Assembly: GCA_026770025.1 (NCBI GenBank)
Contig: JAMXDE010000013.1
Location: forward strand, 1,302,001-1,366,000
Direction of reading: 5' to 3'
DNA: 64,000 bases
From: Craspedostauros australis
Taxonomy: Eukaryota; Bacillariophyta; Bacillariophyceae; Mastogloiales; Achnanthaceae
This document shows positions 10,115 to 32,837 of this stretch, piece by piece. The position numbers and the translations under genes are program-made. The first letter of the stretch is position 1; each line of letters begins with the position of its first letter. Under the pieces are notes generated by a model. The model saw nothing but the letters and a program-made list of their open reading frames with translations. It was not told the origin of the DNA and searched no databases.

Positions 10115-13100
10115 ATGGCATCGAAGGGCGACTCAACGACTGACGGCAGCGCCCGCGATATTGGCGATGAACGCGACGAGATCAAGGAGCTCCAGAAGAT
10201 CTCCCAAAAGGAGACAAACAGAGTCCGAACATGGCGCTTGCTTCTCTGTCTCGCTCTCTTGCTGGCTGCCATCTCTGTCACCATCGCAACCTACCAGCTA
10301 CTTCGTCGACAGGAAACGCGCAACTTTGAGCAGGCAGTAAGTTTGGAACAACCTTCAAGACAAGTGACGGCTGCCTCAACACTTGACGATTCCACCGGCT
10401 CGTACCATACTCACTCTGACACACATCTATCCTCTTGTCAATGTATACTCTTATATTACGTACTGCTCAAATTCTCACCGCCCCCGTCACGCGTGTACCG
10501 ATCCATCAGTTCACCCAATTCGCTCGCACCATCAAGAGTTCAATGCTACAGAACCAGGAAGATATCCGGCAGTCCCTGTACGGTTTGAGCAGAGTGTGTT
10601 CATCGGATGCCGAGGCTACGAACGCAACTTGGCCATTCCATGTTGTGAACAACTTCGAAGCTCATGCCAGGACGGCGAGGGACCACTCTGGCAGCGAGCT
10701 CATCTCCGTTGCCAGGCTTGTGCCACGTGAGCAAAGGGACGAATATTTGGATTTCGTTTCAGACACCTACAGACAAATGGTCATCGGCGGTCACATGCAG
10801 GACAAGGGAAACCTGGATCGACTCGTGGACAACACTGCCGACTACAACAACTACATGTCCAAGCCTGGATCTCCTAGGTTCGTCCCGCAGGATCAACTTG
10901 ACTACTACTGGCCCTTGTACGAGTTCTCGCCTCCGTACTTCTCGTATGGCGTGATCAATTGGGACCTCAGATCAATTCCAGTGTACGACGACATCCTCAA
11001 GACGATGCTCGTGCTCAAGAATGAGACACTGAGCACGAAGGTCAGGGGATACTCGACTATCGGTATCTCTTTCACGTACGAAGAACACCAGCAGATGCAC
11101 AGCCAACCCCAGAACTCGGACGAGGACTTTCCGCATAGTTTCACCTACTATCCGGTATACAATAAAACTGGAGACTCCAACTCCGGCATAGTGGGCTTGG
11201 TCGTTGCGGCAGTCGCTTGGGATGCGGCTATGCGATCCCTTCTCCCCACCGGCGTTTCTGGTATCGTCGCCATCCTGCGAAACACATGTGATCAGGCATT
11301 CACGTACAGAATCAATGGTCCGGACGCCATATTCATTGGTGAAGGCGAACTGTACAAGAACAAGTACCCCGATCTCAGGCATAGGGTTGACCTGGCAGTT
11401 CACACTCATCCAGACTTCACCACGGCACCCGGTCACTGCATGTACTCACTGGTAAGATCTCATCTGAGGAAGTCATGGATCTGTTTGCAGCTGCGACTGG
11501 CACTGGCATGACCTGTTGTTTGCTCTACTTCATCACAATTCTCGCTCTGCTATGCGTCGTTCGCTGTTCATCCATTTCTGCGCGCTCTTACATTGGCAAC
11601 GCCATCAACATTCGTCTTTGCAACACACTCCACTCCTGCACTTACACCTGCACCTGCATCTTTATCCTCTCCTTTACTCACATTGTGGCATGAATAGGAT
11701 ATCTTTCCATCGAAGGAATTAGAGGATGAATACACCACGGACACACCTGTCATCTACGCCGCTGTAGTTGCCGTCACCTTCGTCGCGGTCATCCTCATCT
11801 TCTTCGTGTACGATCTCTTCGTCCAGAGACGCAACTGGAAGCTGATGGGACAAGCGGCACGATCCAACGCCATCGTCACGTCCCTCTTCCCAGGCAAGCT
11901 CCGAGACCAGATCATGGACCAAAGCCGAATGGACCAGAAGGAGTCACGAAGAGGAACGGCATCCGAAATGAAGTCCTTCCTGTCATTCGCCCTGAGCGAG
12001 GACAACGATTTCGTCAAGTTCGAATCACGGCCCCTGGCTGAGTTCTTCCTGGAGACGACCATCATGTTCGCTGACATCACCGGCTTCACAGCATGGGCGT
12101 CCGTCCGCGAGCCAAGCCAAGTCTTCACTCTGTTGGAGACCGTGTACAGCTCCTTCGATCAGCTCGCGAAGCGCCGGCGCGTGTTCAAGGTGGAGACCGT
12201 CGGTGACTGCTACGTCGCAGTGACAGGATTGCCCGAGCCCACAGCAGATCATGCCATCTCCATGGCGAGATTCGCCCAGGACTGCCTCTGGAGCTTCAGT
12301 ACCATGGTCCATCAGCTCGAAGTCATCCTTGGTCCTGACACAGCCGACCTGAGCATCCGCATTGGGATCCACAGTGGGCCGGTGACTGCCGGTGTGTTGC
12401 GTGGTGAGCGCTCTCGCTTCCAACTCTTCGGAGACACCATGAACACAACAGCCCGACTGGAAAGCACGAGTATGAGAGGCAGGATTCAGGTGTCGAAGCA
12501 AACGGCCGAGCTCATCGCAAAGTCAGGCAAGCCTCATTGGCTGCAGAAGCGAGCTGACGCCGTGATGGCGAAGGGGAAGGGGGAGATAGAAACCTTCTGG
12601 CTTTGGCTTGGCACAGGAAGTCCCACAAACAGAGCTGGCAGCGAGACAGACATGAACACTCAAATCTTCGAACTCGCCGATGCCATTCAGGGGAACAAGT
12701 CCATCAGTCTGGACTCAAGGATTGCCCGCCTCATCGACTGGAACGTCGAAACTTTGGTGCGGTTGCTGAAGCAAATCGTCGCAAGACGACGCGCGTCACA
12801 CGCTTTCTCTTCGAAACCAAGTCACGTTGACCGCAGCATGTGTCTCAGTGTTGATCACAGGGAAGGAGAAACCTTCCTCGACGAGGTGAAAGAAATCATC
12901 GAACTCCCTGAGTTCGACGCGGGCATTGCTCAGAGGGAGCAGGCACAAGGCCCCGCCGAGGTCAGCTCTGTCGTTGTCGAAGAGCTCCGAGCGTACGTGA
13001 CAGAAGTCGCGGGCTTGTACCGCAAGAATCCGTTCCACAGCTTCGAGCATGCGAGTCATGTCACCATGTCCGTCATCAAGCTCATGACACGCATCGTGGC

Positions 13101-14082
13101 CCCTTCGGATCTCGATCTTGGCAGCACTGCAACGGAGGCAACCGTTCACGTAGGCGACGAGAATGCCGCGGACAAGGGCAGATTGCAAAAGGAGGCATCT
13201 TCGTTGCACGATCACACCTACGGAATCACATCCGATCCGCTGACGCAGTTTGCGTGCGCCTTCACTGCACTCATCCACGACGTCGATCACACCGGCGTTC
13301 CCAACCAGCAGCTCATCAGCGAGAATCCAAGGCTTGCGGCCATCTACAAGAACAGGAGCGTTGCGGAACAAAACTCGCTCAGCCTCTCATGGGATCTCCT
13401 CATGGATGAACGCTTCGAGAACCTGCGCAACACCATCTTCTCCACCAAGGCCGAGCTCTGCCGTTTCCGAGAGCTTGTGGTGAACGCTGTCATGGCCACA
13501 GACATCGTCGACAAGGACCTCAAGGTCCTCCGCAACGAGCGCTGGAACAAGGCATTCGAGACTACCGACAACAGCAGCAGCAACAACAACAACAACAACA
13601 ACAACGATGTTGGCAACGTTACTGCCGACAGCAGCAGGAAAGGTCGATCGGTCAGTGCGAAACGCGCAGCTCGTGATGGTGTCAACCGCAAGGCGACCAT
13701 CGTGATCGAGCATCTCATCCAGGCCTCGGATGTTGCCCACACCATGCAGCATTGGCACGTGTACCGCAAGTGGAACGAGCGGTTGTTCCACGAGCTCTAC
13801 GCTGCCTACCGAAGCGGACGAGCAGGCAGCAACCCAGCAGACTTCTGGGCGAAGGGCGAGGTGATGTTCTTTGACCATTACGTCATCCCGCTGGCGAAGA
13901 AGCTGAAGAACTGTGGAGTCTTCGGTGTGTCGAGTGATGAATACCTGAACTACGCCATCAGCAACAGGCAAGAGTGGATCGAGAAGGGTGACACGATCGT
14001 TGCGGACATGGTGAGCAAGCTGAGCGACCAGTTCGAGGCCAGCAGCACGGATACGGAGGAGGAAGAGGAGGAGAGTGAGTGA
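10115..14082 (+). CDS. Receptor-type nucleotide cyclase/phosphodiesterase, copy A
   Basis: Three exons (10115-10336, 10510-11451, 11698-14082) with GT-AG introns in phase 0 give 1,182 residues. The layout is a short basic/acidic N-terminus, TM1 (41-63), an ectodomain of about 340 residues coded mainly by exon 2, TM2 (406-427), a class III cyclase (about 505-690) and a class I cyclic-nucleotide PDE (about 820-1150). The cyclase keeps both metal Asp sites (FADITGF, GDCY) and NTTAR. A Glu in FKVETVGDCY favours GTP, but the second base-contact site is Gln (FQLFGDT) instead of the usual guanylate-cyclase Cys. The PDE keeps NPFHSFEH, HDVDHTGVPN and SDVAHTMQHW, so its metal and catalytic residues are present. 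One protein can therefore make and destroy its messenger. A poly-Asn run (about 625 in exon 3) interrupts the PDE domain. The ectodomain matches no family I recognise; a receptor role is inferred from topology. Confidence 0.9.
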
Positions 14083-15141
14083 GTGAGTGAAGCATGGCAG
14101 ATGCAGAATGGATGCAGAGCTGATGACACCGCGAGGGTACGATGGTGATGCAGGTGCGCGCATCCAGAAGTTGCCAAAAGGGAATAATGCCACATGTGGT
14201 TGTGACGGATGGCTCTACTCCAGAGAGTATACAGGCATGGTATCATTCGAGACCCAGGGAGTCCAGGAGTTTAACCTTCGACCAAGATACATGTTATACG
14301 CATGATGCAATACATCCGAGTACTCGCAGGTGCCATGAGCTATGCACAGCGTGCGACATGGTGCACGACTACTATAGAGTAGTTGATTCAGTCAAGAACA
14401 GTTCGAAATCGTCGTTCCCAGCGTGCAGCTTCGTGACCAGAGTCCGCACACCAGCAACGATGCATCGCCCTCGCCGAGCGTGAGTCAGATGTATGGTACG
14501 CGCGGTAGTATTGCCATAGTCGTACATATTATACCACACAACCCAAGGGAAACATCTGGACCACACGCGACAAGGTGACGGTCTCATGGACGCTGGTGGC
14601 ATTGTTGTTGTCGGTATTATTCCTCCAGCCCTGCTTCTTCGAAATTGTGCCGTCCTAGTCTCTCTTGGGGAGGCTTGTGTGTAGTATCATAATATTATAC
14701 CATACAATCTACAAGTGAAATATATGATATAACCTAATAGGTCATACTCGCATGCCACGTGCTCCACCATGCTGGTGTGCGGAACGCGACGCGCTAACTC
14801 ATTCTCTCTCTCTCTCTCTCTATCTAGACATTTATCTTTAGCCTGCATGGTTGAGCGGCGAGTGGATTGGATTGGACTGAACCGATTGAATTTCTGGACA
14901 ACGAAAAACGCACGATAAAGTGGTCTGGATACTCACACGTTGTGTGGAAGCTTCCGATCATGATGCTCGTGACACATCAACGCTCGTGAGAACAGAACGC
15001 ATGTGCGCTTCTCAAGAAAATCGTGACACTTCGAGAAATCGAAATCGACAACCAACCAACCCCCCAATCCTCCCACAATACCGATCACAAGCCAGATTCC
15101 CACCACCATTGTCAGCACCAGCACCAGCACCAGCACTCAAG
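14083..15141. other. Intergenic with (TC)n tract
   Basis: This is the 3' region of gene A and upstream region of the next gene. A (TC)n run lies at 14803-14820. The last 50 bases before 15142 are CA-rich (repeated CAGCAC), like a 5' UTR. No gene is recognised. Confidence 0.5.
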
Positions 15142-16296
15142 ATGCCTTCCCCCAAGCACGCAGCCTTCTACGATGAAGACAATTTCCCTGTCCCTGGGAC
15201 AAGAGTAATCATCTCAAAAGCAGGGAGGCTCCCTGCAAAGGGAATCGTGGTTGGGTACACCAAGCACAAGATGAAGGTCCACTGCACGCAGGGGAATGCA
15301 GAGATACGCACTGGGCGGACAGTAATCATCGGTCTCGGTGGGCTTTACCCCTTGTCCAAGCCAGAATACAAGAGCGCTAGCATTGATCCGTTCGAAGTGA
15401 TGAGCATCGCAATCGCGGATGGCCAGTGCTTCGTGCCTGGTGAGGACGGTCGGTGGACCGAGACCTACAATGAGGGACGGCACCAGGGCGCTGCTCTGGA
15501 ATCTTTTCCATACTTCAAAGTCAAGGAGGACCGCGTGGAAGACATCAAGGCCCGAGCTCAGGTCGCTCGAACAGTCGAAAGAGGCCACAGATTGCTTGCG
15601 GACTATCGCGCGGCGCAGAGAAATGCTCTCAAGTCTTGCCCTCCCATCCAGCGCCATCCGCACGCCGAATGGATCTCCACGTTTCCCAGCCACACCAGAA
15701 CGACGGAACCGAAACCAATCAACACGGAGGCCGCACATTTATCCGCCAAGATGCAAGTTCCGAAGGACCTCTCCAACAAGAAGCAGGAGAAACAATACAT
15801 CGCGGATAGCGGCAGCGAGTACGAACAAGATACTGACACCGAAGCGTCGCCGTCAGTAATAGAAAAGAAGCGCGCACGCCGAAAGCGCACCGAGGATCCC
15901 AAGCCTCCGCCAAGGGAGATTTCTCTTCCCAGCCGCCGCCTGCGCAGTAACAGCCGCGACAGCGGAGCCATGGAAGAGGCCAGGGTCGTCTCTAATCAAT
16001 CTTTGATAACCGACACCAGCCACACCAGGAGGATGGATGAGGAAGAGTTTCCGGTCGACCTATTCATTAGCTCAGATGAGGAGATCAAGAGCATGCTGCA
16101 ATCCGACTACGCAGCCAGGGGCTCGATCACGACCTTGGCGGCGTGCCTCACAAGAGCTGGTGTCCCGACGGTCAATCGCTACCACATCATGTCGTTAGCC
16201 CAACATATCAACGACGAGATGCAGCAGATGAATTGTCCACGCCCGAGAAGTGCGAAACGATCCCACAAACGCCGCCGAACACGTCGAAGTGCGTGA
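15142..16296 (+). CDS. Unrecognised protein with basic C-terminal tail
   Basis: The protein has 384 residues from the ATG at 15142, chosen because the bases just before it are CA-rich and low-complexity. An in-frame ATG at 15001 would add 47 residues. The N-terminal 90 residues look folded and beta-rich (TRVIISKAGRLPAKGIVVGY, then VIIGLGGLYPLSKPEY) and could be a small SH3- or Tudor-like barrel, but I cannot assign it. The middle is charged (SGSEYEQDTDTE, KKRARRKR). A second short helical region follows (FISSDEEIKSMLQSDYAARG). The protein ends in a cluster of Lys/Arg (KRSHKRRRTRRSA). The basic clusters suggest a nuclear or nucleic-acid-binding protein; this is inference. No enzyme motif is visible. 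Confidence 0.6.
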   Translation: MPSPKHAAFYDEDNFPVPGTRVIISKAGRLPAKGIVVGYTKHKMKVHCTQGNAEIRTGRTVIIGLGGLYPLSKPEYKSASIDPFEVMSIAIADGQCFVPGEDGRWTETYNEGRHQGAALESFPYFKVKEDRVEDIKARAQVARTVERGHRLLADYRAAQRNALKSCPPIQRHPHAEWISTFPSHTRTTEPKPINTEAAHLSAKMQVPKDLSNKKQEKQYIADSGSEYEQDTDTEASPSVIEKKRARRKRTEDPKPPPREISLPSRRLRSNSRDSGAMEEARVVSNQSLITDTSHTRRMDEEEFPVDLFISSDEEIKSMLQSDYAARGSITTLAACLTRAGVPTVNRYHIMSLAQHINDEMQQMNCPRPRSAKRSHKRRRTRRSA

Positions 16297-16859
16297 GCGC
16301 ACAACCACGAAAGGCCCCCAACACGTTATGGCATCTGCAACCATGACGCCAGCGCGGCCTCCTGTTTGTACTCCGATCATTAGGTGTTTGCGAAATCCAA
16401 CGAATCGGGTTAAACCAGTTTTATTTTGTATCTATAATATTCTATTATACTATTATACTTGTATTGGGTCATGTACGCGTATTTAACTACGATTCATCAC
16501 ACCTACCAGCAGCAATGATCTATTACATTAGAATACTTGGAAATCAATAGAATACTACTCCGGAGCAGATGAATTTAGAATCTGTGGTATTACTCGTGCA
16601 GTACGAGCTCGGGTATTCTGCGCTACTCGATGTAGTTTTGGACGTTCCGCTGAAAACAGATTGCCAGAGGAAGGCACTTCCGAGAACTATCTTCCCAATT
16701 CCGGGTGATGTGATTCTTTCAAGTAACATAGTATGTTAGTAGTGGTGTACTAGTTGTACAGTGCATGGAGAGCAATGGGGGATGCTCGAAGTACGTATAA
16801 TAGATAGGCATGGTACGGTACATGGAATGCAAAATTGTGGAAAGTGGTTGGCAGGTTGC
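16297..16859. other. Intergenic, convergent
   Basis: AT-rich stretch between two convergent genes, with runs of TATAATATTCTATTATA type near 16430-16460. Nothing further is recognised. Confidence 0.5.
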
Positions 16860-17681
16860 TCAGGATGACGCGTTGCGGTGTGCATGTTGCTGCTGCTGCT
16901 GCTGCTGCTGGGTGAGATTGGAGTTGGAAGCTGCCCCAATGTCGCTGTTCGGAGCAGTCGGCACCAATTCCTCCATCATCTTGGAACCATCGTCGGAGTT
17001 CACAATGTGCGATTCCAAGTTGGAAACGAAGCTGAGGAAGCTGGAATCATGCAGCAAGCGGGTGACGTGGGACATGACGCAATGATTGTGTTGCTGCTTG
17101 TTTGGGCGATGCTGTCGCGTGATAACGGTATTCTCGCGACTCGACGATGAAGGCACAGCCAACGACCGCTTCGGTGGATTGTGTCGCAAGAAAGCTGCCG
17201 AGAAGCCATGGCATTCTTGCCGAGAGCGAAAGCGCATCACCATGGCGCGCGGTTGCCGCTGTTGCGACGAATTGGAGACGAGCAAGATGCAGTCGCCGCG
17301 TTGGATCATGGTCGTTTTGTCTGCTGGTTTCGTGGTGCTCTTGCCGCCATCATCATGTTGGTCGTCGTTGCCATTGTTGTTGTCGTTGTTCAGCGTGAAC
17401 TTTTGGCGCAGCGCCGGGATGACGATGCAGTTTCTTCTTGGCGCCACGCTCAGGCATGGCCTTCTTCTGTTGCCATCATCAAGGACACCATTCTCATCGT
17501 CTGCCAGGGGCGTCTGTTGCTGCCATCCATGACTCTCGGTGAAGCGGAAGATATCGACTTCCCAGCCTCGCGACTTTTCTTCGCGCATCGTCGTCATGTT
17601 ACCGCCGCTGTTTTCGTTGCAATGAATGCAGTTGTTCACGTTGTGCACGTATTCGTTGTGAAGAACAGACATGGTCGTCAT
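16860..17681 (-). CDS. Unrecognised soluble protein, poly-Gln tail
   Basis: The protein has 273 residues from the ATG at 17681 (another in-frame ATG follows at 17672; the frame is open further upstream only from a GTG). The N-terminal region has CIHCNEN. The centre is Asn/Asp-rich. Residues about 135-230 look folded: DCILLVSNSS...RAMVMRFRSRQECHGFSAAF, then HVTRLLHDSSFLSFVSNLES. The pattern of a hydrophobic strand, a residue-recruiting helix and an L-L-H-D-x-x-F-x-x-F-V helix looks like a conserved domain, but I cannot name it. The C-terminus is a run of eight Gln coded by CAG repeats (about 16889-16912). No signal peptide, membrane helix or catalytic motif is visible. Confidence 0.6.
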   Translation of the reverse strand: MTTMSVLHNEYVHNVNNCIHCNENSGGNMTTMREEKSRGWEVDIFRFTESHGWQQQTPLADDENGVLDDGNRRRPCLSVAPRRNCIVIPALRQKFTLNNDNNNGNDDQHDDGGKSTTKPADKTTMIQRGDCILLVSNSSQQRQPRAMVMRFRSRQECHGFSAAFLRHNPPKRSLAVPSSSSRENTVITRQHRPNKQQHNHCVMSHVTRLLHDSSFLSFVSNLESHIVNSDDGSKMMEELVPTAPNSDIGAASNSNLTQQQQQQQQHAHRNASS

Positions 17682-17704
17682 GGTGCGACGACTGCTTTTC
17701 ACTG

Positions 17705-17735
17705 CTGTGTGTTGTGTGTTGTGTGTTGTGTGTGG
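17705..17735. repeat. TGTGT/TGTTG microsatellite
   Basis: Short imperfect run of GTGTGTTGTGTGT, just upstream of the start of the unrecognised minus-strand gene. Confidence 0.8.
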
Positions 17736-17951
17736 GCGATCTTACGTATGTCTGGAAGATCGACGAACGGCAAGGAGAGCCAGAAAGGAAGTTTAATCTG
17801 CTCGTACGTCTGGATCGCAGCAAGTTGTGAATCGAAGGATTGAAAATCGCGGTGCCAGGCAGTGTGTGCGGCAACGACGCAGTGCGAGCGCGGCTGTGTG
17901 TGGACCGGGTTCTGAGGTGCCAGATGGGTGAATGGATGGATCGGCAGGGCC

Positions 17952-18001
17952 AACTCAGCTCAGCTCAGCCCAACTCAACTCAACTCAACTCAGCTCAGCT
18001 C
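17952..18001. repeat. (CAACT/CAGCT) pentanucleotide repeat
   Basis: Ten tandem pentamers alternate in blocks between CAACT and CAGCT (one is CAGCC), which suggests slippage plus point change. Confidence 0.9.
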
Positions 18002-19074
18002 TCTTCCTTCGGCATCGCTTCAACTCCCTCACTTCAACTCGGCACACACTCAGGACAGCACCGTTGGCAGGGTGTCGCTGCCAGAGTGGACCTTCGTGCC
18101 GATTCGCTTTGTCCCGTGTCGCTCCTCTCTTGTGTCTTCCTCCTTTCTCCGTGATGACGCCAACGGATGCAACAAGAAGACGAATGGCGCCTGCGCTTCC
18201 TCTGATTTCTCAAGGAACGCAGGAACAAGTGACAATTCGCTTCTCCCAAAGATGCGCCATCTGCCAAAGATCGGTGTTCGTTTCGGCTTCTCTCTAAAAT
18301 CCTGCACAAACTTGTATTCGAGTGGGTCGATTTTCCCTTTTCAAAACGTTGGTTTTTTCGAATGTACGATTTCATGAACGAAGAACGGATATTGAGAAAA
18401 ATGGTGTAGCGAGGCAAGACTCCCCGGAGCACTGTGGAGACAGAGCACTATTGCGTGTTCATTCGAGGCATTCACACGGATTAAACGTAGGCCATAGAAA
18501 TAAATCATATTTTTTACCTTGCTTGCCCTGCGCCACGACGGTGAAAAGCTGTTTTGTGTGTCGGTCTCGATTCGTGTTGCACGCCACTCTTGTGGAACCC
18601 GTTGGGACGGCTCCACCTTCCACTCCTTGAAGCTTGCAGCTTCGAGGATTCGGTCTCAGTTGTGCTTCAACCTTCACCCTGGGGATATGTAGAAAGAGAG
18701 AGGAGCAGATCACACGTTCTCGTCAACGTGCTGAGGTTGCCATCGTTGCAGCAACCATGTTGATTTGGATGAAATATGGATGTTTTATATTTGGTCCATC
18801 CGTCCATCAGAACGCCACAGCTTCTGTCGTTTCGATTCATCGAGTTTCGAGGAACAACGATGACGCAGATCGAATCGTTTTCGGGATCGAACACAAACAC
18901 ACAGAACGACGCAGCGCAACGCACAACGCAACGCACAACACAAAATTGATTCAGAAGCGCACCAACAAAGTCACAAATCGCCGCAAATAGTCACAATCAC
19001 ATTCATACTCGTAGCTCGTATAATACCAGTATTGGCATAGAAGAGGAGGAAGAGGCACCGAAAGAGAGCGGATC

Positions 19075-20328
19075 ATGTGCAACGACTGCATCAAACGTAG
19101 AATCAGCGCCAGCGGCGGCAGCAACGATGGAGGCAATTCGTCGACGCCCGTCTTTGACATGGTGGTATCCTGCAAGGGGCGCAGCAAAACGCTGTGCGTC
19201 ACGACAGCGACAACTCCAAGCGCTGTCCACGCAATGGCCTTGCGGCATCTTGGACTGGATTCCGCAACCAGCAGTGTCAAGCTGGTGCTGAAGGGCAAGA
19301 GGCTGGATCCCACCGACGCAGCGACGCCCCTCTTCACAAAGCAACCGAAGAAGACGCCGCGCCTCATGGCACTGGTCACGCCGCTTCAAGTGGCCAACGA
19401 AATCGCCGACAAGCAATCGGATCCCACGATCCGCGGCTTCGACAAGGAGGCCGAACGCACGCAGCAGCAGCACAAGGCCAACGCACGCAGCAGCAAGCAG
19501 CACTGGGGCTCCAACACGGCGCAAGATCGGCAGTACCGCTTCGTGCAGATCGAGGCATGCACGTGGCATTCCTTCGGACATCGGCCGACCGAATCGACGC
19601 CGCATGCCTTCGAAGCGTTCGCGCTGTTGGAGAAGCTGTCGACGGATCCCGGAATGGTTGCCATCATGCGAGAACGCGAGCTCGTCGTCAACACGTTGGG
19701 CGAGATGGATCCCGTCGACGATCGGCTCATGCAAAAGAAGCAGCAGCAGGGCGGGTGCCTGCTGGGGTACAACACCAACCATGGTCTGCGCATCGACATC
19801 AAGCTGCGCACGGATGACCTGGCCTCGTTGCGCCCGTATCATGAACTCGCGGCGACGTTGATTCACGAGCTGTCGCACAATTGGGTCGGCGAGCACAATC
19901 TGCTGTTTTGGACCAACTACGCGCAGATGCGAGCTGAGTATCTGTACATGCATCGCAATTTGCAAACCTCCTTGTTGTACCGGGTGCAAGGCAAGACGAC
20001 GGCGCAGATCGCGGGGTGGTCCAAGGAAGCGCTGCAGAACATTCCCGAAAGCATCCTCAACGAGCTGACACGAGAAATGGCACAGCACGGATTGCATCCT
20101 CGCATGATCGAGAATGCAATTCGTGTGCGATGCGCTGAGTTGGAACGCGAGAACAAGATGCCACCGATTTCAGGTGGTCAGCGTTTGGGAGGTGGTGGTG
20201 CTGCTGCTGCTGACAATGTCAATGCCAATGCTGCAGTATCGACCAACCAAGCCATGTCCGCAAGGGAACGAGCATTGGCAGCCGCAGAACGACGCGCGAG
20301 GGAGCAGAGGGAGAGGTCAAACAAATGA
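19075..20328 (+). CDS. Ubiquitin-like plus WLM (Wss1-like) metalloprotease
   Basis: The protein has 417 residues, with an ATG at 19075 and one exon. Residues about 25-100 resemble a ubiquitin-like fold (FDMVVSCKGRSKTLCVTT, SVKLVLKGKRLDPTDAATPLF). The WLM domain follows, with the zinc site H264-E265-x-x-H268-x5-H274 (HELSHNWVGEH). Wss1/SPRTN-type proteases cleave proteins crosslinked to DNA, often aided by ubiquitin or SUMO contacts; that role is known of the family and inferred here. The C-terminal 70 residues are Ala/Asn-rich and end in a charged ARERALAAAERRAREQRE helix. I see no clear SHP box or SIM. The UBL-WLM order is also known from plant and protist relatives. Confidence 0.85.
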   Translation: MCNDCIKRRISASGGSNDGGNSSTPVFDMVVSCKGRSKTLCVTTATTPSAVHAMALRHLGLDSATSSVKLVLKGKRLDPTDAATPLFTKQPKKTPRLMALVTPLQVANEIADKQSDPTIRGFDKEAERTQQQHKANARSSKQHWGSNTAQDRQYRFVQIEACTWHSFGHRPTESTPHAFEAFALLEKLSTDPGMVAIMRERELVVNTLGEMDPVDDRLMQKKQQQGGCLLGYNTNHGLRIDIKLRTDDLASLRPYHELAATLIHELSHNWVGEHNLLFWTNYAQMRAEYLYMHRNLQTSLLYRVQGKTTAQIAGWSKEALQNIPESILNELTREMAQHGLHPRMIENAIRVRCAELERENKMPPISGGQRLGGGGAAAADNVNANAAVSTNQAMSARERALAAAERRAREQRERSNK

Positions 20329-20675
20329 AACTCGGACGATTGTGCTGAAACCATTGCAAGTACTCTAGAGTAAGAAAATGATCATTATTTGTATTATATG
20401 ACTTCCATCGTTGGCTTTCGCGATTCTTCGGGACGTACTGTTCAAGCACTGCATTGGCGAAGGAAAGGCGATTGCCCATTCTGGTTCGTCATCTTCATCT
20501 CGGGCGTTTGTTCTGTTCCCGTTGTCACAAACCAATCAGTATGGATGCGACTCCAACGATCCTCGTTAACAGTAAGCACGTACGATGACTCTACTCTACT
20601 CTCTGGAGTCCAGAAGCAAGTAATTCTTCGACTACTCAAGAACGCGCTATCATACTTGTACGCTGCCCTAAATGG
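20329..20675. other. Convergent intergenic region
   Basis: 3' ends of the WLM and SDF2-like genes. No gene is seen. Confidence 0.5.
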
Positions 20676-21667
20676 TTACTTCGACAAGTGGACACCCATC
20701 TCGACCACGAACTTGCTGAAGCCATCCTTCTGCCCACGACCAAAGATCTCCAGATGATTCATGATGGGACACTGGCGCCCGCAGTTCTGCTGGGTGAATT
20801 GCACCGTCGATGACGCGCCAAGGTACTTGCCGGTGTCGACGTGCTGGAACTGCACGTGCTTTTCGCGCTGCCAGTGCTCGCCATCGCAGACGACCATCCA
20901 ATCATCGCCGGCGTCGCCGCGTCCGTCACCCTCCCCGTAGGCCGTGACCTCCTGCTGCCGGCTCAGCGGCGATCGCTGTCCGTGCGAGTGCAGATTGCGC
21001 ATCGTGTTGAGGTGGGTGAGGCGGATGGAGGATCCGCATCGGATGGGCGTTCCGGGTCCGTCCTGGCAGGCGCTGGCGACGTCGGAGCGGTCAGAATTGG
21101 GCGCGCGGATGAGCCAGAGGGCGTTTGTGGTGGTGGGGTTGGAGACGGCCGTGACGATCTGCTGACCGCTGCCACCGCCCAAGCTCTTGGCTTCGCTGTT
21201 CAGGAAGTACGAATCGTGCTTCTTCATTCCGCTTTCCACGTGCGTCATCTTGACAGCGGACCCGCAGGTGACGAAGCCATCGTCTATTTGTGTCATCGAA
21301 CGGATATATGGTCGTAGAGTATGGTCATCGTATCGCATTGGCAATGCCAGGTGGGGGAGCGCGGTTAGAGTAGTGCATTGGTGGGGTGATGTCCGCGCAG
21401 TCAAGCGTTCGCGATGGCGAGCGGTGAGATAGGAGTGGGCAAATGAAATAGGTGATCGAACGATTTTACAAGGAGTATGTACCATCGCTTCGTCTCTCTT
21501 CCTGCCTGACTCAAGAATGCAATGCGGCAAGTGCATGGGCACAGTACACAGTGCGCAGATGGACAGATCATGTGCACACAACAGCCACAAAGTTCGTTGC
21601 AACACTCACCGTCGGCCAGGATTCCAACCGCGAGGGAAAAGAGGGTGGTGATGCTCAGTGTCTTCAT
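20676..21667 (-). CDS. SDF2-like secretory-pathway MIR protein
   Basis: Two exons, 21610-21667 and 20676-21283, are joined across a 325-base GTGAGT...AAATAG intron in phase 1, giving 221 residues. Exon 1 codes almost exactly for a signal peptide (MKTLSITTLFSLAVGILAD). Exon 2 starts DDGFVTCGSAVKMTHVESG and carries three MIR motifs (SYFLNSEAKSLGGGSGQQIV; IRLTHLNTMRNLHSHGQ; VQFQHVDTGKYLGAS), ending HLEIFGRGQ. This matches SDF2/SDF2L1 (about 211 aa), ER proteins that work with chaperone complexes in folding and quality control. A 309-residue frame starting at 21605 includes the intron and is rejected. No HDEL-like retention signal is present; the end is VHLSK. Confidence 0.87.
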
Positions 21668-23479: not shown

Positions 23480-23733
23480 GACGATGGTTTTATCATCGAT
23501 GAGGGTTTGCAGCAGGTGTAGTCCAACCTCTTCACGATATCGGACTTCCATTGCTCATCGATTGCATGATAAACACATCTCCCCTTCAAGCCGGCCGCCA
23601 TCCGATCAGCGCACATGCGCTTCTTATAATCTGGATCCTCGAACACATCGCCATCGTTCTTGTCGAAGACGACTTCCTGACTGGTGACGACTGGCGAGTA
23701 CATCAAAGCTGATGCTTCCATGACCTTCTTCAT
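23422..23733 (-). CDS. Possible small protein or terminal exon
   Basis: A 103-residue frame with an ATG at 23733 and protein-like composition: SQEVVFDKNDGDVFEDPDYK and GRCVYHAIDEQWKSDIVKRL, then a Ser-rich tail antisense to the end of the neighbouring gene. It could be a small gene, a last exon of a spliced gene, or chance. No family is recognised. Confidence 0.35.
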   Translation of the reverse strand: MKKVMEASALMYSPVVTSQEVVFDKNDGDVFEDPDYKKRMCADRMAAGLKGRCVYHAIDEQWKSDIVKRLDYTCCKPSSMIKPSSHSSPSDGEDAATESSSND

Positions 23734-23924
23734 ACTATCTGTTCACATTCAAGACTTCGCGTTGTCTTGGCTCCGACGTACGAGTAATTCCGAAATAGTA
23801 CAGTAATCGATGTAACAACGATCTGAACACTCTTGACGCGTGTCGAACGCCCTGAAATGTGCACGTCATGGCACGACACAACGTAATACGAGTATGGCAT
23901 CGCCAATCATATCCTGCCTGACCG

Positions 23925-25118
23925 TCATGTTCCGACCAGAACATTGACGAAGATCTGCGAGAATACGTAGAACACGATGCTCGGATTGTCCGTTTTGCAA
24001 TATCTTTCCAAGATCGTTGCATACAGATAAGCGGGCGTCGTCGACAGTTCTTCCAGCAGTTGCTTTCGATTCAGATCATTTAGCTGCGTGCAGAGACCCA
24101 AGACTTCTTCGGTCGAGTAAGGAAGACCGTCAATTTCAACATCGATGATCGAGTGGTTGTTGTCGAGCAACCGCCGTGCCAGCATCAGCAACTCTGGATC
24201 ATCGTCCATGGGCAGAAGATCGAGGAGCGCGTCATTCTGATGCTTCCTCCCATCCAGCCCGACGGATTTTATCCGCTGGAACGGCTGCAGGAGGATCCGA
24301 AGCGTGGCCCTCATGTCTTCTATGGAAAGATGGTAGTTCCCCAGCACGAGCATCTCCAGCGAAGCCATCTCTTGCCGATCCTTCAATGATCCTTCGATGG
24401 CGACGAAATGCTCCGCCTGCAATCCCAACCACACCAGGCTCACCGTCTTGAGAGACGGTGCCAGGCGCAGGAAGAATGCCCGAACGCATTCCACGCTGAC
24501 AAAAGACTCCACCTCCAACGATTTGTTCTGCACCGAGGATAGGTGCAACGTCTCCAAATTGGCAAGCTCGGGGATCATGTCCAGCAGTGGATCCAGCAGG
24601 GTGTCATTGTATCGTTGCACCGACACGATGAAGCAATCATCCAGGATGATATCCACCAAGTTCGGGCAGGTCCACAGCGCCTCCGCGAATCGTGCCACTT
24701 CGGTCTCGCTACAAAAGGTGAGACATGAATGGCATTGCAAGCTGATGAGGTGCGTGTTGTCGAGAAACAGCGGACTGATCCGTCCGGGTCTCACCATGCC
24801 CGCCATGCAAGGCTGGATGGACAGCGTTTCCATCGCGAGTTGCCCGACCTGCTGCAGCAACCGGACGAAGTCTTGACGCGAGAGATGCTGTCGGATGCGC
24901 CGCAACGGAAAGAAGGACTCGCGGATGATGACATGCCGCACGGTGGTGTTGGCTTGCAGGGCATAGAGGATGTCATCGAGTTCGTGCGGCTCGCATTCTG
25001 CGGTGAGGGCCATGGTGGTGAGATTCGGATCGTTGTGGTAAAGGCAGCTCGCCAGGCTCTCCAGGCTGTACCGTCTGGATGAGTCGAACGAACCGTCCGA
25101 AGTCATGTGACCGCTCAT
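23925..25118 (-). CDS. LRR/RNI-like repeat protein
   Basis: The protein has 397 residues from the ATG at 25118 (a TTG two codons upstream is rejected). It has leucine-rich periodicity of the ribonuclease-inhibitor type: DDILYALQANTTVRHVII, NTHLISLQCHSCLTF, CPNLVDIILDDCF, LANLETLHLSSV, PSLKTVSLVWLGL and MASLEMLVLGNYHLS. Spacing is irregular, as is usual in diatom RNI families. The C-terminal 90 residues are helical (LNDLNRKQLLEELSTTPAYL) and end in VFYVFSQIFVNVLVGT. No F-box, kinase, signal peptide or clear membrane helix is seen. A protein-binding scaffold is the likely role; partners are unknown. Confidence 0.72.
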   Translation of the reverse strand: MSGHMTSDGSFDSSRRYSLESLASCLYHNDPNLTTMALTAECEPHELDDILYALQANTTVRHVIIRESFFPLRRIRQHLSRQDFVRLLQQVGQLAMETLSIQPCMAGMVRPGRISPLFLDNTHLISLQCHSCLTFCSETEVARFAEALWTCPNLVDIILDDCFIVSVQRYNDTLLDPLLDMIPELANLETLHLSSVQNKSLEVESFVSVECVRAFFLRLAPSLKTVSLVWLGLQAEHFVAIEGSLKDRQEMASLEMLVLGNYHLSIEDMRATLRILLQPFQRIKSVGLDGRKHQNDALLDLLPMDDDPELLMLARRLLDNNHSIIDVEIDGLPYSTEEVLGLCTQLNDLNRKQLLEELSTTPAYLYATILERYCKTDNPSIVFYVFSQIFVNVLVGT

Positions 25119-25651
25119 GGTCAACCCCGATCTTTCACTTCGCCAGCGTGTGTACTAGCAGTTGTACCTAGGCGGGTGTGGGTGTGGGTGAGGAGTTGGA
25201 GGGTGTTGTGTTGTTACTCATGTGTGTGGAGGCAGCTGTAACAGTAGCCTTGTAGTCGTACCACACGGCTGTGACCAACACCGCCGCCAGGCAAGCAACA
25301 GAAATCCACGTGTGCAGTGACACAAAGATACGATTTGTGGCTTGCGATGACTCGTGAATCAGAACGCAGCTACCAACCGTGACTCGCTGTCCCAAGGAAA
25401 GAAGAGGGAAACGAAATTGAAAATCTTTGAGATGACCAAGCGCAATCACGTCGAAGCCAACGCCCAGGTTGGGTTCATGGTGGAATGAATCATAATTTTA
25501 TATGCACGAGCATGGTGCTCACAGAGTAATGGATAACTGGAGTTCGTATGGATATGCATTAGCATTTGCTATAATATTTTTCCTGCGTGTGGATCTTGAG
25601 AACCGTCTATGAACTGTTGGTGGATGGTCCACACACGCATTTCCAGCAGAG
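25119..25651. other. Intergenic between minus-strand genes
   Basis: This contains a 93-codon open frame (25168-25449 minus) with one hydrophobic stretch but only a GTG start. It is left unannotated. Otherwise nothing is seen. Confidence 0.45.
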
Positions 25652-26799
25652 TCACGGATCGGGAAGAAGCAGGGAGACGCCCAGAGAAAGCGCTAGAATC
25701 ATGTTCGTGAATGATATGCGCTGCGGACAACCCGATTCTCCATCTGTGGGTTGCGCTGTGGGTTGCGCTGTGGGCTGTTGCGTTGGCTGCATAGTGGTCG
25801 TCGGCATTGCCGTTGGAGATGCTGATAAGCCCGTCGGTGCGCTTGTGGGTGCCTCCGACGGTTCCACCCCAATCTGCGAATTGTACATGTTCGCCAGCTG
25901 GACCAAGTTGCCCTCGCTCCAGAAATCCACGGAGATGAAGTTCGGCAGCTTTTGCCCGTGACGCGATTGGCATGCCTTGACCAACCGATCAGCGAATTCA
26001 ACCGTGTTGATGATTTTGGCGTCATCCTGAGATGGTTGGAACTGGCCAAATATTGTGTCCAGAGTCACGAAATTGTTGATGAACAGCCAATCCCCGTTCG
26101 AGGATTGCCCGCGATCGACCGGGCAGTTGCCATCGATGATCACGGTTTCGATCTCCTCCTGATCCTTGAATGAAAACTCTGTCTCCATGGTGTAGTCGTA
26201 CAGATAATGGATGCCATCTGGGTGTACACCATCACCTGTTGGGCCACGGTGATAGAATAGGATGACTTGCTTGCCGTCATTCAACAGCGTTCCTAACTTG
26301 GGCCAATCGGTCGGCGACGTGGGAGGGTCCATGCCATCCTCAGGATGATGGTACAATCGCGCCGCAAAGCCATCGCCAACACCGTTGACGATGCTCTCCA
26401 CATCCAGCAGGGTGACGGGGCCGCCTGCTTCTCCGTTCAATTCCAGGTTGAGCACGACCAATTCTCCTGGATTCGCGATGAGCCAACTGTTGAGGAGCTG
26501 CAACGTGCTGACCGGATTGCGGCCTCCAATGCCGCAACCGACAGCGCTCGAACCATGGCACAGCAGCAACCCGTCGTCGCAGTTGCACACATCCAGAGAC
26601 AGCCCACGATATCCTCTCTCCAAGGCGTCGTTGAACGGATCGTTCATATGATTCGCCGCGAAAGTGAAACCGTGATTGGGTGACGACATCGCATTGTGGA
26701 TCATCGGCATCATGATCTCGTTTACCGAGACGTTGCAGAGGTTCGAGAAGCCATTGCATGTGGTGATGGAAGCGTCGTTGGCTGTGGCTTGCCCCATCA

Positions 26800-26830
<31 letters not shown>

Positions 26831-26932
26831 GAACGTCGGGGATGTCGGGAATGTCATGGTCGACGCGAGCAGCACCGTGACGAACGAAAGCAACGTGCTC
26901 GTACGAGTAGAGCAGAACATCTTCATTGTCAT
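25652..26932 (-). CDS. Secreted PLC-X-like phosphodiesterase, possibly GPI-anchored
   Basis: The protein has 426 residues with an ATG at 26932. A signal peptide (STLLSFVTVLLASTM) is followed by a run of ten Thr coded by an ACG/GTC-type repeat (about 26798-26831). The PLC-like TIM-barrel domain spans about 55-350: MPMIHNAMSS with candidate catalytic H79, GYRGLSLDVCNC, LLLCHGSS with H126, NPGELVVLNLELNGEAGG and QVILFYHRG. These are the blocks of PI-PLC X-domain proteins that cut phosphoinositide or GPI-like bonds without calcium. A Pro/Thr/Gln stalk (TTTMQPTQQPTAQPTAQPT) leads to a hydrophobic end (FTNMILALSLGVSLLLPDP), which could be a GPI-attachment signal. The true substrate is unknown. Similar secreted copies are common in diatoms and oomycetes. 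Confidence 0.8.
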
Positions 26933-29310
26933 CCTTGTACTTTGATGCAGTCGCAGGCTGCGTTTCGCGCGCTTTGAGAAGCGGATATGGCACTACGCGT
27001 GCTATATTATGAGGGGCTGGCTGATCTCCTACCCACTACTCGTAGGTAAGGCGTCTGTGCTCTACTCTGCACTTGAGATGGTCCCACAAGCATTCGTGTG
27101 GCACATGCAAGTCGCTGGAGGAGAACGCGCACAGCAAGGCGCCTTGTCTCAGGACATCACCAGATCTCGTTTCGCTTTCGCCATTTCTTCATACAATTTT
27201 TGTTTTTGCGCGTTTGTGCCATTGTCATTCTTTGCCCGTCGTCGCAGATTGATGCGCTCCCGAATCTTCTTTCACAGTCAAAATCACAACCTCAACATGA
27301 CAGTTCGATCAAGCTACAAACGGTCATATCTGACCAAAGCTCCGAACGGTCACTGACAAACGCGATCAGATTTTCGTCGAAGGCCATTCTTCGTTTCGGT
27401 GTGAAACACGAATGTGGATGCGAAAGGACTAAGGCAAACCTGTGGCCCACAATCCTTGTTGCTGGTTTGGAACTGCAGCAGTTGGCCTCGGATCGCATCA
27501 AGACCTGCAACGAGGACGAGTCATTCCATTCCCTTCACACTTGCCATACGTTCACTATGCTCGAAGATGCACATTCCAAGTACGCGCTCTGCGGTCATCA
27601 TTGTGTTTGGTTTTGCTTCATCTGTTGCCATGGCGCCAGACATCGTTCCTCGGGCGTGAAAGTTCCTTGTCGACGCCGAATTGCGTGTTGGGTGTTGCCA
27701 ACGTTCCCATTGCTCTGCGAACGCTTTCATCCAGCCGAGGAAGTCGACGCTGACAGAAAATGAAAGCCAACCAAGGAGATTCGCGTTTTCGTTGTAGCGG
27801 CTCTGTCCTCGCACGACGCGAATGGCTCATCCACAAACTATTCCACTCAACCCTCCACCGTGATTCGCACCTCGGTTGGTCTCGGCACTTGGAGCAACGT
27901 GTATGCGGATTGCCCAACGACGATAGTGCAGACCACTGCGGGTGGCACCGAGAAAGAGAGATCCGATCTACTCCAGAGTAAGAGAGAGAGAGAGAGAGTG
28001 TGTGTGTGTGTGCTCCGCAGAGTACTCCGTGCCACCTGTTGGAACAGCGGAACAAACGCCTGGTGTGCGAGCTCTTGCTTGTGTGACCTATGAACCAAAG
28101 AGTTGTAACACGCACATGCCACACTTCCACGAGAAGCGATGGCCGTTGGGCAAGACTGCTTGCGCCTTGGGGAAAGTTGCAAGACCACGAAACGATGCGG
28201 ATACGTGGTATTCTGACGCGCACCATCGTCTGCGATGTCGCGGCTGTTCTTTGCAGAAAACTCCATGAAATCACATCGTCATCATTTTTGCAACATCGCC
28301 CAATACACAGAAAGTCCATTGATCTCAATCGCCGCCATTGAAGAACACACGACTATCACAAATATCCCCTTGGGCGCAAACTACCATCATTCATGTGTTC
28401 GCGTGTGGCTCGTGTGAGATACATTCGCTGGTGGAAGGAATGGTGGCGGGCCCGAATTCAACAATGGCGAACGAAGTCATCATCCTTCGTGCCTAATCGT
28501 AGTCTTCTCTACCAACAAGCACAGAACACTCATGTCCACGAGAGTCTTGGAAGGGAGACATCGCCTATTCTGTACATTTATTCGCGAATGGGGAGAACGC
28601 AGAAGCGTATTGCGCACAAACGATACTTATTGCGCGAGGATTTGTGAGTAAAGGAGACATCAAGCTCACTCATCGCCGCCACAAGTACCACAAAAGCCCA
28701 ATCCTGTCTCTTCGGAATGTGATCACAGAGTCATCGTTCTCCACGGGCGGCGAAGGAAGGAGCCTCATCCCTCACTGAGAGGTCTCGTGCGCCCGTACCT
28801 CCTCTTCACCGACATCGTGCTCCCAAAAACGGATTCGAAGGCGTTGCGCATGTTGCCCAAATCAAACACCACCACCGTCCATTCGACACATGAAGTGACA
28901 ACCTACGAGCTGCGCGTGCAAGTATGGGACGGAGATGCCCTTGATGTTTCTGTCTCGCTGGTTGCGCGAGCACAACAATGGTATCGATGCGAGGCGAAAA
29001 ACCAAGAAGCAGAGCCACCACCAATGTTCCAGCATTTCCGTTTCTTTGCTCACTCTTCTCCTCATTCTTTGCACACATCATCCATGGCATTATCGGACCA
29101 GTACTAACACCACACCCCTCCCAAAAGCCAGCAGCAGTATAATCGAGTATAATCCACACGTACCATAGTGCTCTTACCACGCCACACTTCATTCCTTTCA
29201 AAGCAAGACGTGCGGGAAGAGCAAAGCAGTTCTGTTGGTCGGAGTGACAACCCCAACCTTCGCAACCCCCGCAACCCCAAGACAACAATCCTGGTACAAG
29301 ACGCCAAATC
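26933..29310. other. Intergenic, 2.4 kb, no gene recognised
   Basis: Open frames of 100-236 codons exist on both strands but lack coherent composition or motifs. A (GA)n(TG)n repeat lies at 27980-28012. The last part should hold the promoter of gene B. Unlike the introns, it shows no obvious similarity to the upstream region of gene A. Confidence 0.5.
27980..28012. repeat. (GA)n(TG)n compound microsatellite
   Basis: About nine GA units run directly into about seven TG units. Confidence 0.9.
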
Positions 29311-29675
29311 ATGAGTGCTGCGGCAATCAAGCCACCGAAGATGCAATCCGACGATGGTTCCACGACCAACGGCAGCACCCGCTACGGCGGCGACGAACGC
29401 GACGAGATCAAGGAGCTCCAGAAGCTATCTCAAAAGGAGACAAACCGAGTCCGGACTTGGCGCCTGTTCCTCTGCTTTGCCCTCTTGCTGGCCGCCATCT
29501 CCGTCACCATCGCAACCTACAAGCTCCTTCGTCGACAGGAACGGCTCAACTTTGAGCAGGCTGTAAGTTTGGAACAACCTTCAAGACAAGTGACGGCTGC
29601 CTCAACACTTGACGATTCTACCAAGTCGTGCCATACTCACTCTGACACACATGTATCTTCTTGTCAATGTATACT

Positions 29676-29703
29676 ATTCTATTCTATTCTATTCTATTCT
29701 ATT
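29676..29703. repeat. (ATTCT)n in intron 1 of copy B
   Basis: Five to six ATTCT units lie inside intron 1. The matching place in copy A has a short TATACTCTTATATTACG sequence, so the expansion is specific to copy B. Confidence 0.85.
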
Positions 29704-32178
29704 ACGTACTGCTCTAATTCTCACCGCCCCCGTCACGCGTGTGCCGATCCATCAGTTCACGCAATTCGCTCGCACCATCAAGAACTCGATGTTGCAAAAC
29801 CAGCGAGATATCAGAGAGTCCATGGATGGTTTGGGCAGGGCATGCTCATCGGATGCCGAGGCTACGAACGCAACCTGGCCATTTCATGTACTGCACAACT
29901 TCGAATCTCATGCTAGGACGGCCATTGACCACTCTGGCAGCGAGTTCTTTGCAGTTGGCAAGCTGGTGACGCACGACGAGAAGGACGATTGGCTGGATTT
30001 TGCATCACAGACCTACCGACAGATGGTCATCGACGGCCACATGCAGGACAAGGGCAACCTGGATCGACTCGTGGACAACGCTGCCGACTACAACAACTAC
30101 ATCTCTCAGCCTGGATCTCCCAGATTCACCCCGCAGGTAGATCTTGACTACTACTGGCCCATGTACGAGTTCTCGCCCCCGTACTTCTCGTATGGTGCGA
30201 TCAATTGGGACTTCAGATCGGTGCCAGTCTATGACGACATCCTCAAGACGATGCTCGTGCTCAAGAATGAGACCTTGAGCACGAAGGTCAAGGGATACAC
30301 GACTGTCGGCCTCTCCTTCACATACGAAGAGCACCAGCAGATGCACAGCCAGCTCCTCAATTCAGACAAGGACTTTCCGCATAGCTTCTTCTACCACCCA
30401 ATCCACAAGAAGACGGGAGACTACAATTCCAAGATTGTGGGTTTGATCGTCACGGCAGTTGCTTGGGATGCGGCCATGCGATTCCTTCTCCCCACCGGCG
30501 TTTCCGGCATCATCGCCATCCTGCGAAACACATGCGATCAAGCGTTTACGTACAGGATCATTGGCGCGGATGCCGTCTTCGTTGGCCCCGGTGATATCCA
30601 CCAGAACGAGTACTCCCATCTCAAGCATGAAGTCGACCTGGCAGTTCACACTCATCCAGACTTCACCACAGCACCCGGCCACTGCATGTACTCACTGGTA
30701 AGATATCATCTGAGGAAGTCATGGGTCTGTTTGCAGCTGCGATTGGTACTGGCATGACCTGTTGTTTGCTCTACTTCATCACAATTCTCACTCTGATATA
30801 CGTCGTTCGCTGTTCATCCATTCCTGCGCGCTCTTACATTGACAACGCCATCAACATTTGTCCTTGCAACACACTCCACTCTTGCACCTACACCTGCACC
30901 TGCATCTTTATCCTCGCCTTTACTCACATTGTGGCATGAATAGGATATCTTTCCATCGAAGGAATTCGAGGATGAATACACCACGGACACACCTGTCATC
31001 TACGCCACTGTAGTTGCCGTCACCTTCGTCGCGGTCATCCTCATCTTCTTCGTGTACGATCTCTTCGTCCAGAGACGCAACTGGAAGCTGATGGGACAAG
31101 CGGCACGATCCAACGCCATCGTCACGTCCCTCTTCCCAGGCAAGCTCCGAGACCAGATCATGGACCAAAGCCGAATGGACCAGAAGGAGTCACGAAGAGG
31201 AACGGCATCCGAAATGAAGTCCTTCCTGTCATTCGCCCTGAGCGAGGACAACGATTTCGTCAAGTTCGAATCACGGCCCCTGGCTGAGTTCTTCCTGGAG
31301 ACGACCATCATGTTCGCTGACATCACCGGCTTCACAGCATGGGCGTCCGTCCGCGAGCCAAGCCAAGTCTTCACTCTGTTGGAGACCGTGTACAGCTCCT
31401 TCGATCAGCTCGCGAAGCGCCGGCGCGTGTTCAAGGTGGAGACCGTCGGTGACTGCTACGTCGCAGTGACAGGATTGCCCGAGCCCACAGCAGATCATGC
31501 CATCTCCATGGCGAGATTCGCCCAGGACTGCCTCTGGAGCTTCAGTACCATGGTCCATCAGCTCGAAGTCATCCTTGGTCCTGACACAGCCGACCTGAGC
31601 ATCCGCATTGGGATCCACAGTGGGCCGGTGACTGCTGGTGTGCTGCGCGGTGAGCGCTCTCGCTTCCAACTCTTCGGAGACACGATGAACACAACAGCCC
31701 GACTGGAAAGCACGAGTATGAGAGGCAGGATTCAGGTGTCGAAGCAAACGGCCGAGCTCATCGCAAGGTCGGGAAAGCCTCATTGGCTGCAGAAGCGAGC
31801 TGACGCCGTGATGGCGAAGGGGAAGGGGGAGATGGAGACCTTCTGGCTCTCGCCTGGCAAGGGAAGCCCTGATGGCGAGACAGAGAGCGAGACAGACATG
31901 AATGCTCAAATCTTCGAGCTCGCCGATGCCATTCAGGGGAACAAGTCCATCAGTCTGGACTCAAGGATCGCTCGCCTCATCGACTGGAACGTCGAAACTT
32001 TGGTGCGGTTGCTGAAGCAAATCGTCGCAAGACGACGCGCGTCACACGCTTTCTCTTCGAAACCAAGTCACGTTGACCGCAGCATGTGTCTCAGTGTCGA
32101 TCACAGAGAAGGAGAAACCTTCCTCGACGAGGTGAAAGAGATCATCGAACTCCCTGAGTTCGACGCGGGTATTGCTCA

Positions 32179-32813: not shown

Positions 32814-32837
32814 CTCCCCAAAGCGTGTCCCGGACAT

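Follow-up and report, generated by a model that had tools for sequence, protein, structure and literature searches.

Introns more alike than exons in a pair of predicted receptor nucleotide cyclase-phosphodiesterase genes of the diatom Craspedostauros australis

Introduction

Why should two related genes resemble each other more in their introns than in the exons that encode their proteins? This question is raised by a stretch of 64,000 nucleotides from the diatom Craspedostauros australis (GenBank assembly GCA_026770025.1, contig JAMXDE010000013.1, positions 1,302,001 to 1,366,000; hereafter the window, in whose own coordinates all positions are given). The window contains two copies, A and B, of a gene predicted to join an extracellular domain to a nucleotide cyclase and a phosphodiesterase (PDE). 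Both copies are on the same strand, with about 19 kb between them, and share the same three-exon structure. An initial annotation of the locus reported that the exon encoding the ectodomain is less conserved than the neighboring introns, and proposed either diversifying selection on a ligand-binding domain or gene conversion that homogenizes the 3' part of the gene while the ectodomain escapes. The comparison described here, which involves the one pair of sequences present in the window, leads to a different emphasis. We consider it likely that A and B are an old pair in which the introns and most of exon 3 would have been homogenized by recurrent conversion, with selection acting against conversion in exons 1 and 2.

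Results

Copy A (10115-14082, plus strand) comprises three exons and encodes 1182 residues. Exon 1 (10115-10336) encodes a short N-terminus and the first predicted transmembrane helix (TM1; hydropathy maximum of 2.42 at residue 42), and is followed by intron 1 (10337-10509, 173 bp), by the 314 codons of exon 2 (10510-11451), the predicted ectodomain, and by intron 2 (11452-11697, 246 bp). Exon 3 (11698-14082) encodes a second helix (TM2), a class III nucleotide cyclase (PF00211), and a PDEase_I domain (PF00233). Copy B, also on the plus strand, consists of exon 1 (29341-29562), intron 1 (29563-29755, 193 bp), exon 2 (29756-30697, predicted ectodomain), intron 2 (30698-30943, 246 bp), and an exon 3 whose 5' part (30944-32183, TM2 and cyclase) is separated by a retroelement from its 3' part (39388-40511, PDE domain). 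The end of B had previously been placed at 31776; in fact, exon 3 runs to 32183, is interrupted by the element, and resumes at 39388. An in-frame ATG at 29311, upstream of B exon 1, would add 10 residues. All four introns are GT-AG introns of phase 0. The length of intron 1 is a multiple of 3 in neither copy, so that exons 1 and 2 cannot be connected in frame through it, and intron 2 contains in-frame stops in both A and B. Intron 1 of B carries a CTATT-rich expansion and is 20 bp longer than that of A.

The divergence between A and B is distributed very unevenly over this structure. Between the copies, 68 of the 314 residues of exon 2 (159 of its 942 bases) and 14 of the 74 residues of exon 1 are different. 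In exon 3, differences are found at 20 of 787 aligned codons, and its first 240 codons contain 5 base and 2 residue differences. Intron 1 is identical at 162 of 173 aligned bases (93.6%), apart from a 20-base gap, and intron 2 at 232 of 246 (94.3%), corresponding to divergences (K) of 0.066 and 0.059, respectively. The counts of the initial annotation (68 of 314 residues in exon 2, introns about 94% identical, a visibly different exon 1, and near identity over the first 240 codons of exon 3) are thereby reproduced, and its observation that the coding exons diverge more than the introns is confirmed. When fourfold sites were counted in codons alike at their first two bases, 46 of 141 sites in exons 1 and 2 differed vs 25 of 419 intron sites (Fisher p = 2.8e-14), and even the first and second codon positions of these exons (93 of 776 differing) exceeded the introns (p = 0.00075).

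Synonymous (dS) and non-synonymous (dN) divergence follow the same mosaic. Nei-Gojobori counting (NG86) yields dS values of 0.617, 0.524, and 0.061 for exons 1, 2, and 3, respectively, and dN values of 0.112, 0.119, and 0.014. The dS of exons 1 and 2 is 0.52-0.62 by NG86 and 0.59-0.82 by codon maximum likelihood (ML), which is eight to ten times higher than the intron K of approximately 0.06; for exon 2, both methods together give a dS of 0.52-0.59 and a dN of 0.12-0.13. Over its first 690 nt, exon 3 has 0 differences in 159.8 synonymous sites, alongside 2 non-synonymous differences. A run of 628 bp without any A/B difference extends from TM2 to the cyclase (11762-12389, plus strand) and is probably a recent conversion tract, and a further difference-free stretch covers 395 bp (13171-13565). 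Exon 3 also contains two islands of high divergence on the plus strand. The first (12586-12672) packs 24 differences into 87 bp at the end of the cyclase domain, where ML over codons 297-326 gives a dS of 1.34 and a dN/dS ratio (omega) of 0.19, and the second (13126-13154) has 6 differences in 29 bp. Thus, the idea that conversion has homogenized the 3' part while the ectodomain escaped is supported by the low divergence of introns and exon 3 against the high dS of exons 1 and 2, but exon 3 is not uniformly alike.

A two-state hidden Markov model (HMM) was applied to class-specific differences; for introns in the high state, the rate was fixed to that of fourfold sites. The model assigned 10324-10534, 11391-12585, and most of the remaining exon 3 to low-divergence tracts, and exons 1 and 2, both islands, and, uncertainly, the last 12 bases of exon 3 to the high state. 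Exon 2 is interrupted in this segmentation by short, uncertain low stretches at 10800-10841 (one base at 0.5) and 10991-11023. Sliding-window identities put the tract edges at the exon junctions, while the HMM shifted two of the three slightly into exon 2 (95% intervals of 0 to +29 and -65 to -22 from the junctions). When this segmentation is shifted circularly, the low tracts match the introns as well in only 16 of 3943 shifts, and in 13 of 1582 when exon 3 is left out.

Diversifying selection on the ectodomain is not supported by the rates within the exons. For exon 2, omega is 0.23 by NG86 and 0.214 by codon ML, with omega = 1 rejected at p = 2.8e-16; the ML values for exons 1 and 3 are 0.135 and 0.220, and all three exons differ from 1 at p < 2e-7. 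None of the ten thirty-codon windows over codons 1-300 of exon 2 lies above omega 1 (range 0.09-0.58), and the two windows of exon 1 give 0.22 and 0.05. One of the 26 windows of exon 3 reaches 1.09, based on 4 non-synonymous changes and 1 synonymous change, and two of the 26 hold 2 non-synonymous and 0 synonymous changes. Four sub-regions were picked for ML after the window results had been seen, namely exon 2 codons 61-90, 201-240, and 271-300 and the exon 3 island, and omega = 1 was rejected in three of these (p = 0.0029, 0.001, and 0.0076). The exception is codons 271-300, where 13 of 30 residues differ and ML omega is 0.76 (p = 0.64 against omega = 1), a value with which local relaxed or diversifying selection would be compatible. 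Pairwise diversifying selection is not supported, site-specific selection being beyond the reach of two sequences. Synonymous differences in exon 2 tend to lie near residue differences, as they occur in 27 of 81 codons at a distance of one codon or less and in 2 of 17 at 9-20 codons (shift p = 0.022).

The flanks of the two copies provide information about the age of the pair. Within 150 bp, one block is still shared by the 3' flanks, matching at 36 of 46 aligned pairs and containing 3 one-base gaps; its score is equaled in 2 of 1000 shuffles. The 5' flanks are not recognizable as related, with 117 of 1000 shuffles scoring as well. When a looser test was run over 400 bp, the 3' flanks were equaled by 3 of 300 shuffles and the 5' flanks by 71 of 300. 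As the flanks are unalignable or strongly diverged, neutral divergence since duplication must be well above 6%, and therefore the introns, not exon 2, are the anomaly. On this evidence, we take the duplication to be old and the introns and exon 3 to be unusually alike.

Further searches of the window were negative. A tblastn search of the window with the A protein gave just short matches at E > 1 outside A and B, and so revealed no third copy. Mobile or shared introns were rejected as a source, as introns 1 and 2 are unrelated to the rest of the window beyond the A/B pairs; other intron matches at E <= 1 consist of stretches of 13-23 bp and one gapped match of 38 columns, and are mainly 19-20 bp matches to the 1125-bp repeats described below. 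An intron-encoded RNA was likewise rejected, with no Rfam match at E <= 1 in 9500-41000.

With respect to receptor class, a Pfam scan of the enzyme domains of A placed PF00211 at residues 119-302 (E 3.2e-45) and PF00233 at residues 446-738 (E 1.7e-24) of A exon 3. A cyclase followed by PDEase_I in one polypeptide is therefore true of A; in B, both stretches are present with a 7.2-kb element between them. Two hydropathy maxima, at residue 42 and at residues 406-407, enclose the stretch encoded by the 314 codons of exon 2. A third, weaker maximum at residue 301 (1.76 in A and 1.84 in B) is presumed to belong to a soluble segment. The motifs FADITGFT and KVETVGD are found in both copies, and HSFEHA and HDVDH are found in A and in the translation of the detached 3' part of B; we take these four motifs to hold catalytic residues of the cyclase and the PDE. 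By its domain order, two predicted transmembrane helices, and motifs, A fits the diatom-type bifunctional receptor guanylyl cyclase/PDE (GC/PDE), with GTP or ATP as the possible substrate.

The ectodomain itself had no match in the collections searched. Exon 2 of either copy gave no Pfam match at E <= 10, a search in which the HMMER filters drop most matches above 0.1, and no match in PDB at E <= 10. A likeness to CHASE-type sensors is unsupported by the Pfam search. AlphaFold2 applied to the two ectodomain sequences returned a pLDDT of 28.8, and no fold is claimed. No relatives of A exon 3 or exon 2 were found in viral_contigs with single-protein queries, which can reach close relatives only, and no relatives of exon 2 were found in genome_contigs.

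The element in B, which is absent from the initial annotation, is a Copia-type long terminal repeat (LTR) retrotransposon of 7199 bp on the minus strand (32184-39382), located inside exon 3 between the cyclase and the PDE. Its LTRs (32184-32813 and 38753-39382) are 630 bp each and identical at 630 of 630 positions, and a target duplication, GAGGG, is present at 32179-32183 and 39383-39387. An open reading frame (ORF) of 1864 aa (32838-38432, minus strand) contains an RVT_2 match and a YVDD box at 1498; beyond the one RVT_2 stretch, no other Pfam family was matched at E 0.01, and hence no integrase or protease. With its LTRs, target duplication, and predicted RVT_2 reverse transcriptase, the element can be classed as Ty1/copia. 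The identity of the LTRs indicates that the insertion is recent, and the A/B divergence pattern would therefore have arisen while B was presumably intact. Past 32183, the frame of B continues for 9 more residues, the first of which spans the junction, to a stop at 32210-32212 in the LTR, yielding a frame of 810 residues from the ATG at 29341. As it stands, B would either encode an 810-residue receptor-cyclase without a PDE or make nothing. The earlier description of two cyclase/PDE receptors is thus valid for A, but B is not intact.

Further features were noted elsewhere in the window. At the left end, a single ORF (1-2103, plus strand) that is open at the window border combines a polynucleotide kinase 3' phosphatase, an AAA domain, and an aldo-keto reductase domain in an apparent fusion. 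Pfam matches further identify a ferroportin (2502-4589, minus strand), a leucine-rich-repeat protein (5130-7031, minus strand), a WLM-domain protein (19075-20328, plus strand), and a MIR-domain ORF (20676-21605, minus strand); in one of the Pfam scans, which covered nine ORFs, six had no match and one had only a match below the cutoff. A 4705-aa ORF (41077-55194, minus strand) contains about eleven tandem units of 1125 bp (375 aa) at 42241-54492 that are 98.99-99.86% identical in self-alignments, and DUF7640 matches occur in its C-terminal 1307 residues, the sole part scanned. From 57274 to the right end at 64000, the window consists of a tandem satellite with units of 181/182 bp and at least two interspersed types, which in 300-nt comparisons are approximately 79-99% identical within a type and 60-69% between types.

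Discussion

The observed mosaic can be accounted for if these two receptor nucleotide cyclase-phosphodiesterase genes arose by an old duplication and if ectopic gene conversion, between the two copies or with further family members, has repeatedly homogenized both introns and most of exon 3. Conversions that overwrite exon 1, exon 2, or the two short exon 3 islands would be removed by selection because the amino acid differences of each copy matter to that copy, and synonymous differences in the protected exons would be sheltered by linkage. The Copia element cut B between cyclase and PDE later. From the mosaic, the high dS and low omega of exons 1 and 2, the lack of synonymous differences at the start of exon 3, and the diverged flanks, we infer that conversion was at work and that selection kept its tracts away from exons 1 and 2. 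The position of the divergence in the ectodomain hints, less strongly, at distinct ligand specificities that depend on the protected differences. If conversion simply stopped where drift had carried the sequences past a homology threshold, the introns would be released first, as is reported for the GOT1Sd/Sr pair of Tigriopus (PMC3728101); A and B show the reverse order.

Several points weigh against this explanation. Given the circular shifts, it is improbable, if still conceivable, that two tracts came to lie there by chance; the shift test moreover relies on a segmentation derived from these very data, in which the high-state intron rate was fixed by hand. The HMM edge between exon 1 and intron 1 is poorly placed (-67 to +71), and the two edges that fall within exon 2, which were examined post hoc, depend on small numbers of synonymous sites (2 of 15.0 and 1 of 5.7). 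The shelter of synonymous sites near residue differences is significant in exon 2 only, with p = 0.14 each in exons 1 and 3. In addition, K is nearly equal in both introns and the whole of exon 3, as a single recent event combined with exon import would also give. Finally, the data comprise the two sequences alone, and conversion is therefore read from their mosaic rather than from conflicting trees.

It is possible, although rather unlikely, that conversion was neutral and spared exons 1 and 2 by chance, with at least two tracts that happened to cover intron 1 and, separately, intron 2 together with exon 3. Whole-exon omegas well below 1 are also expected in this case, as are tract edges slightly inside exon 2. 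The initial annotation had allowed for a simpler version, in which low dN/dS and high synonymous divergence would mean that exon 2 missed one conversion covering introns and exon 3. The high dS and low omega are indeed found, but a single missed conversion is insufficient because exon 2 sits between homogenized introns, and at least two separate tracts are needed. Neutral conversion thus requires two or more tracts that end near three exon junctions, an arrangement as rare as the shift test indicates, and both exon 3 islands also hold residue differences.

A recent duplication, at a divergence of about 6%, after which exons 1 and 2 were replaced from a third, diverged paralogue, appears distinctly improbable. 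Such an import, perhaps by cDNA-templated conversion ending at exon ends, would explain edges near exon junctions as well as the near-equal values of intron 1, intron 2, and exon 3 (0.066, 0.059, and a dS of 0.061). However, a duplication of this age predicts flanks that are about 94% alike, whereas the 5' flank is unalignable and the 3' flank strongly diverged, and the window contains no third copy.

There is very little to recommend functional constraint on the introns, acting through a non-coding RNA, splicing or expression control, or an overlapping gene, in addition to constraint on the proteins. It would account for introns that differ less than even the first and second codon positions of exons 1 and 2. 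Nevertheless, Rfam gives no match at E <= 1 in 9500-41000, intron 1 tolerates a length change of 20 bp between lengths that differ modulo 3, intron 2 has in-frame stops, and the extension of the low state into exon 3, with 0 of 160 synonymous sites differing in its first 690 nt, is left unexplained. Conversion tracts may end slightly inside exon 2, which would not be the case under intron constraint. Positive selection driving the residue differences of the ectodomain is hardly credible, since the clustering of these differences in exon 2 (variance of counts, p = 0.0008, 5000 shuffles) and the omega of codons 271-300, indistinguishable from 1, are set against an overall omega of 0.21, the absence of any window above 1, and an exon 2 dS nearly equal to that of exon 1 and far above the introns.

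Selectively protected exons between converted introns have been described previously. According to published accounts of the primate L/M opsins, introns are homogenized by conversion and exons are protected by purifying selection against it (PMC3213168; PMC3924837, which cites Teshima and Innan 2008). In those accounts, exon synonymous and non-synonymous divergence both exceed that of introns, non-synonymous divergence is not significantly above synonymous divergence, and tracts lie mostly in introns. The A/B pair exhibits features of this type, with intron divergence below the dS of the neighboring exons and omegas of 0.135 and 0.214 in the diverged exons, and would, by analogy, be another case of an already known pattern, now in a diatom-type GC/PDE receptor. 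The opsins differ in their small divergence (synonymous 6.1%-6.4% in gibbons vs a dS of approximately 0.5-0.8 here) and in that conversion is backed by many individuals and several species rather than one pair; the protected exon in A and B is, moreover, a predicted ectodomain. The GOT1 genes of Tigriopus californicus share islands of divergence amid converted sequence, and the Ka/Ks of GOT1p1/p2 orthologues is reported to be much below one. Contrarily, divergence in the GOT1Sd/Sr pair is described as confined to introns and conversion largely to exons, the opposite of A and B, and the GOT1p1/p2 pair is without introns (PMC3728101). A literature search on diatom gene conversion, receptors, and paralogs found nothing on this case by title or abstract start, which is not proof of absence.

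The initial annotation also raised a role in pheromone response. In the diatom Seminavis robusta, eight GC/PDE genes are reported to respond to sex-inducing pheromone, all of them being up-regulated (PMC8027222, PMC4726125), and the authors of the 2016 report merely hypothesize that the pheromone is sensed by the extracellular domain or by an activator (PMC4726125). As described there, these receptors resemble A and B in having two transmembrane helices, a short N-terminus, and an extracellular stretch followed by cyclase and PDE (PMC4726125, PMC8027222). They differ in that copy B is cut by a retrotransposon, and the likeness described here is one of topology. Any pheromone role for A and B would thus derive from the published Seminavis robusta work, as nothing in the window points there. 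We can nevertheless imagine, as a tentative and somewhat doubtful extension, that A and B each sense a chemical cue of their own, such as one of two pheromones, with a common signaling engine behind both sensors. Conversion would keep the engine nearly identical, selection would keep the sensors apart, and the Copia insertion would have changed B from a self-limiting cyclase/PDE into a cyclase that lacks an off switch of its own.

Conclusions

The corrected structure of B is of practical consequence, as an expression study could otherwise score B as a full GC/PDE. More generally, the divergence pattern points, from sequence alone, to the segments that may have to differ between the copies, namely exon 1, the ectodomain, and the 87-bp stretch at the end of the cyclase. 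These segments offer a short list for ligand-specificity swaps in a receptor class that published reports link to diatom mating (PMC4726125, PMC8027222).

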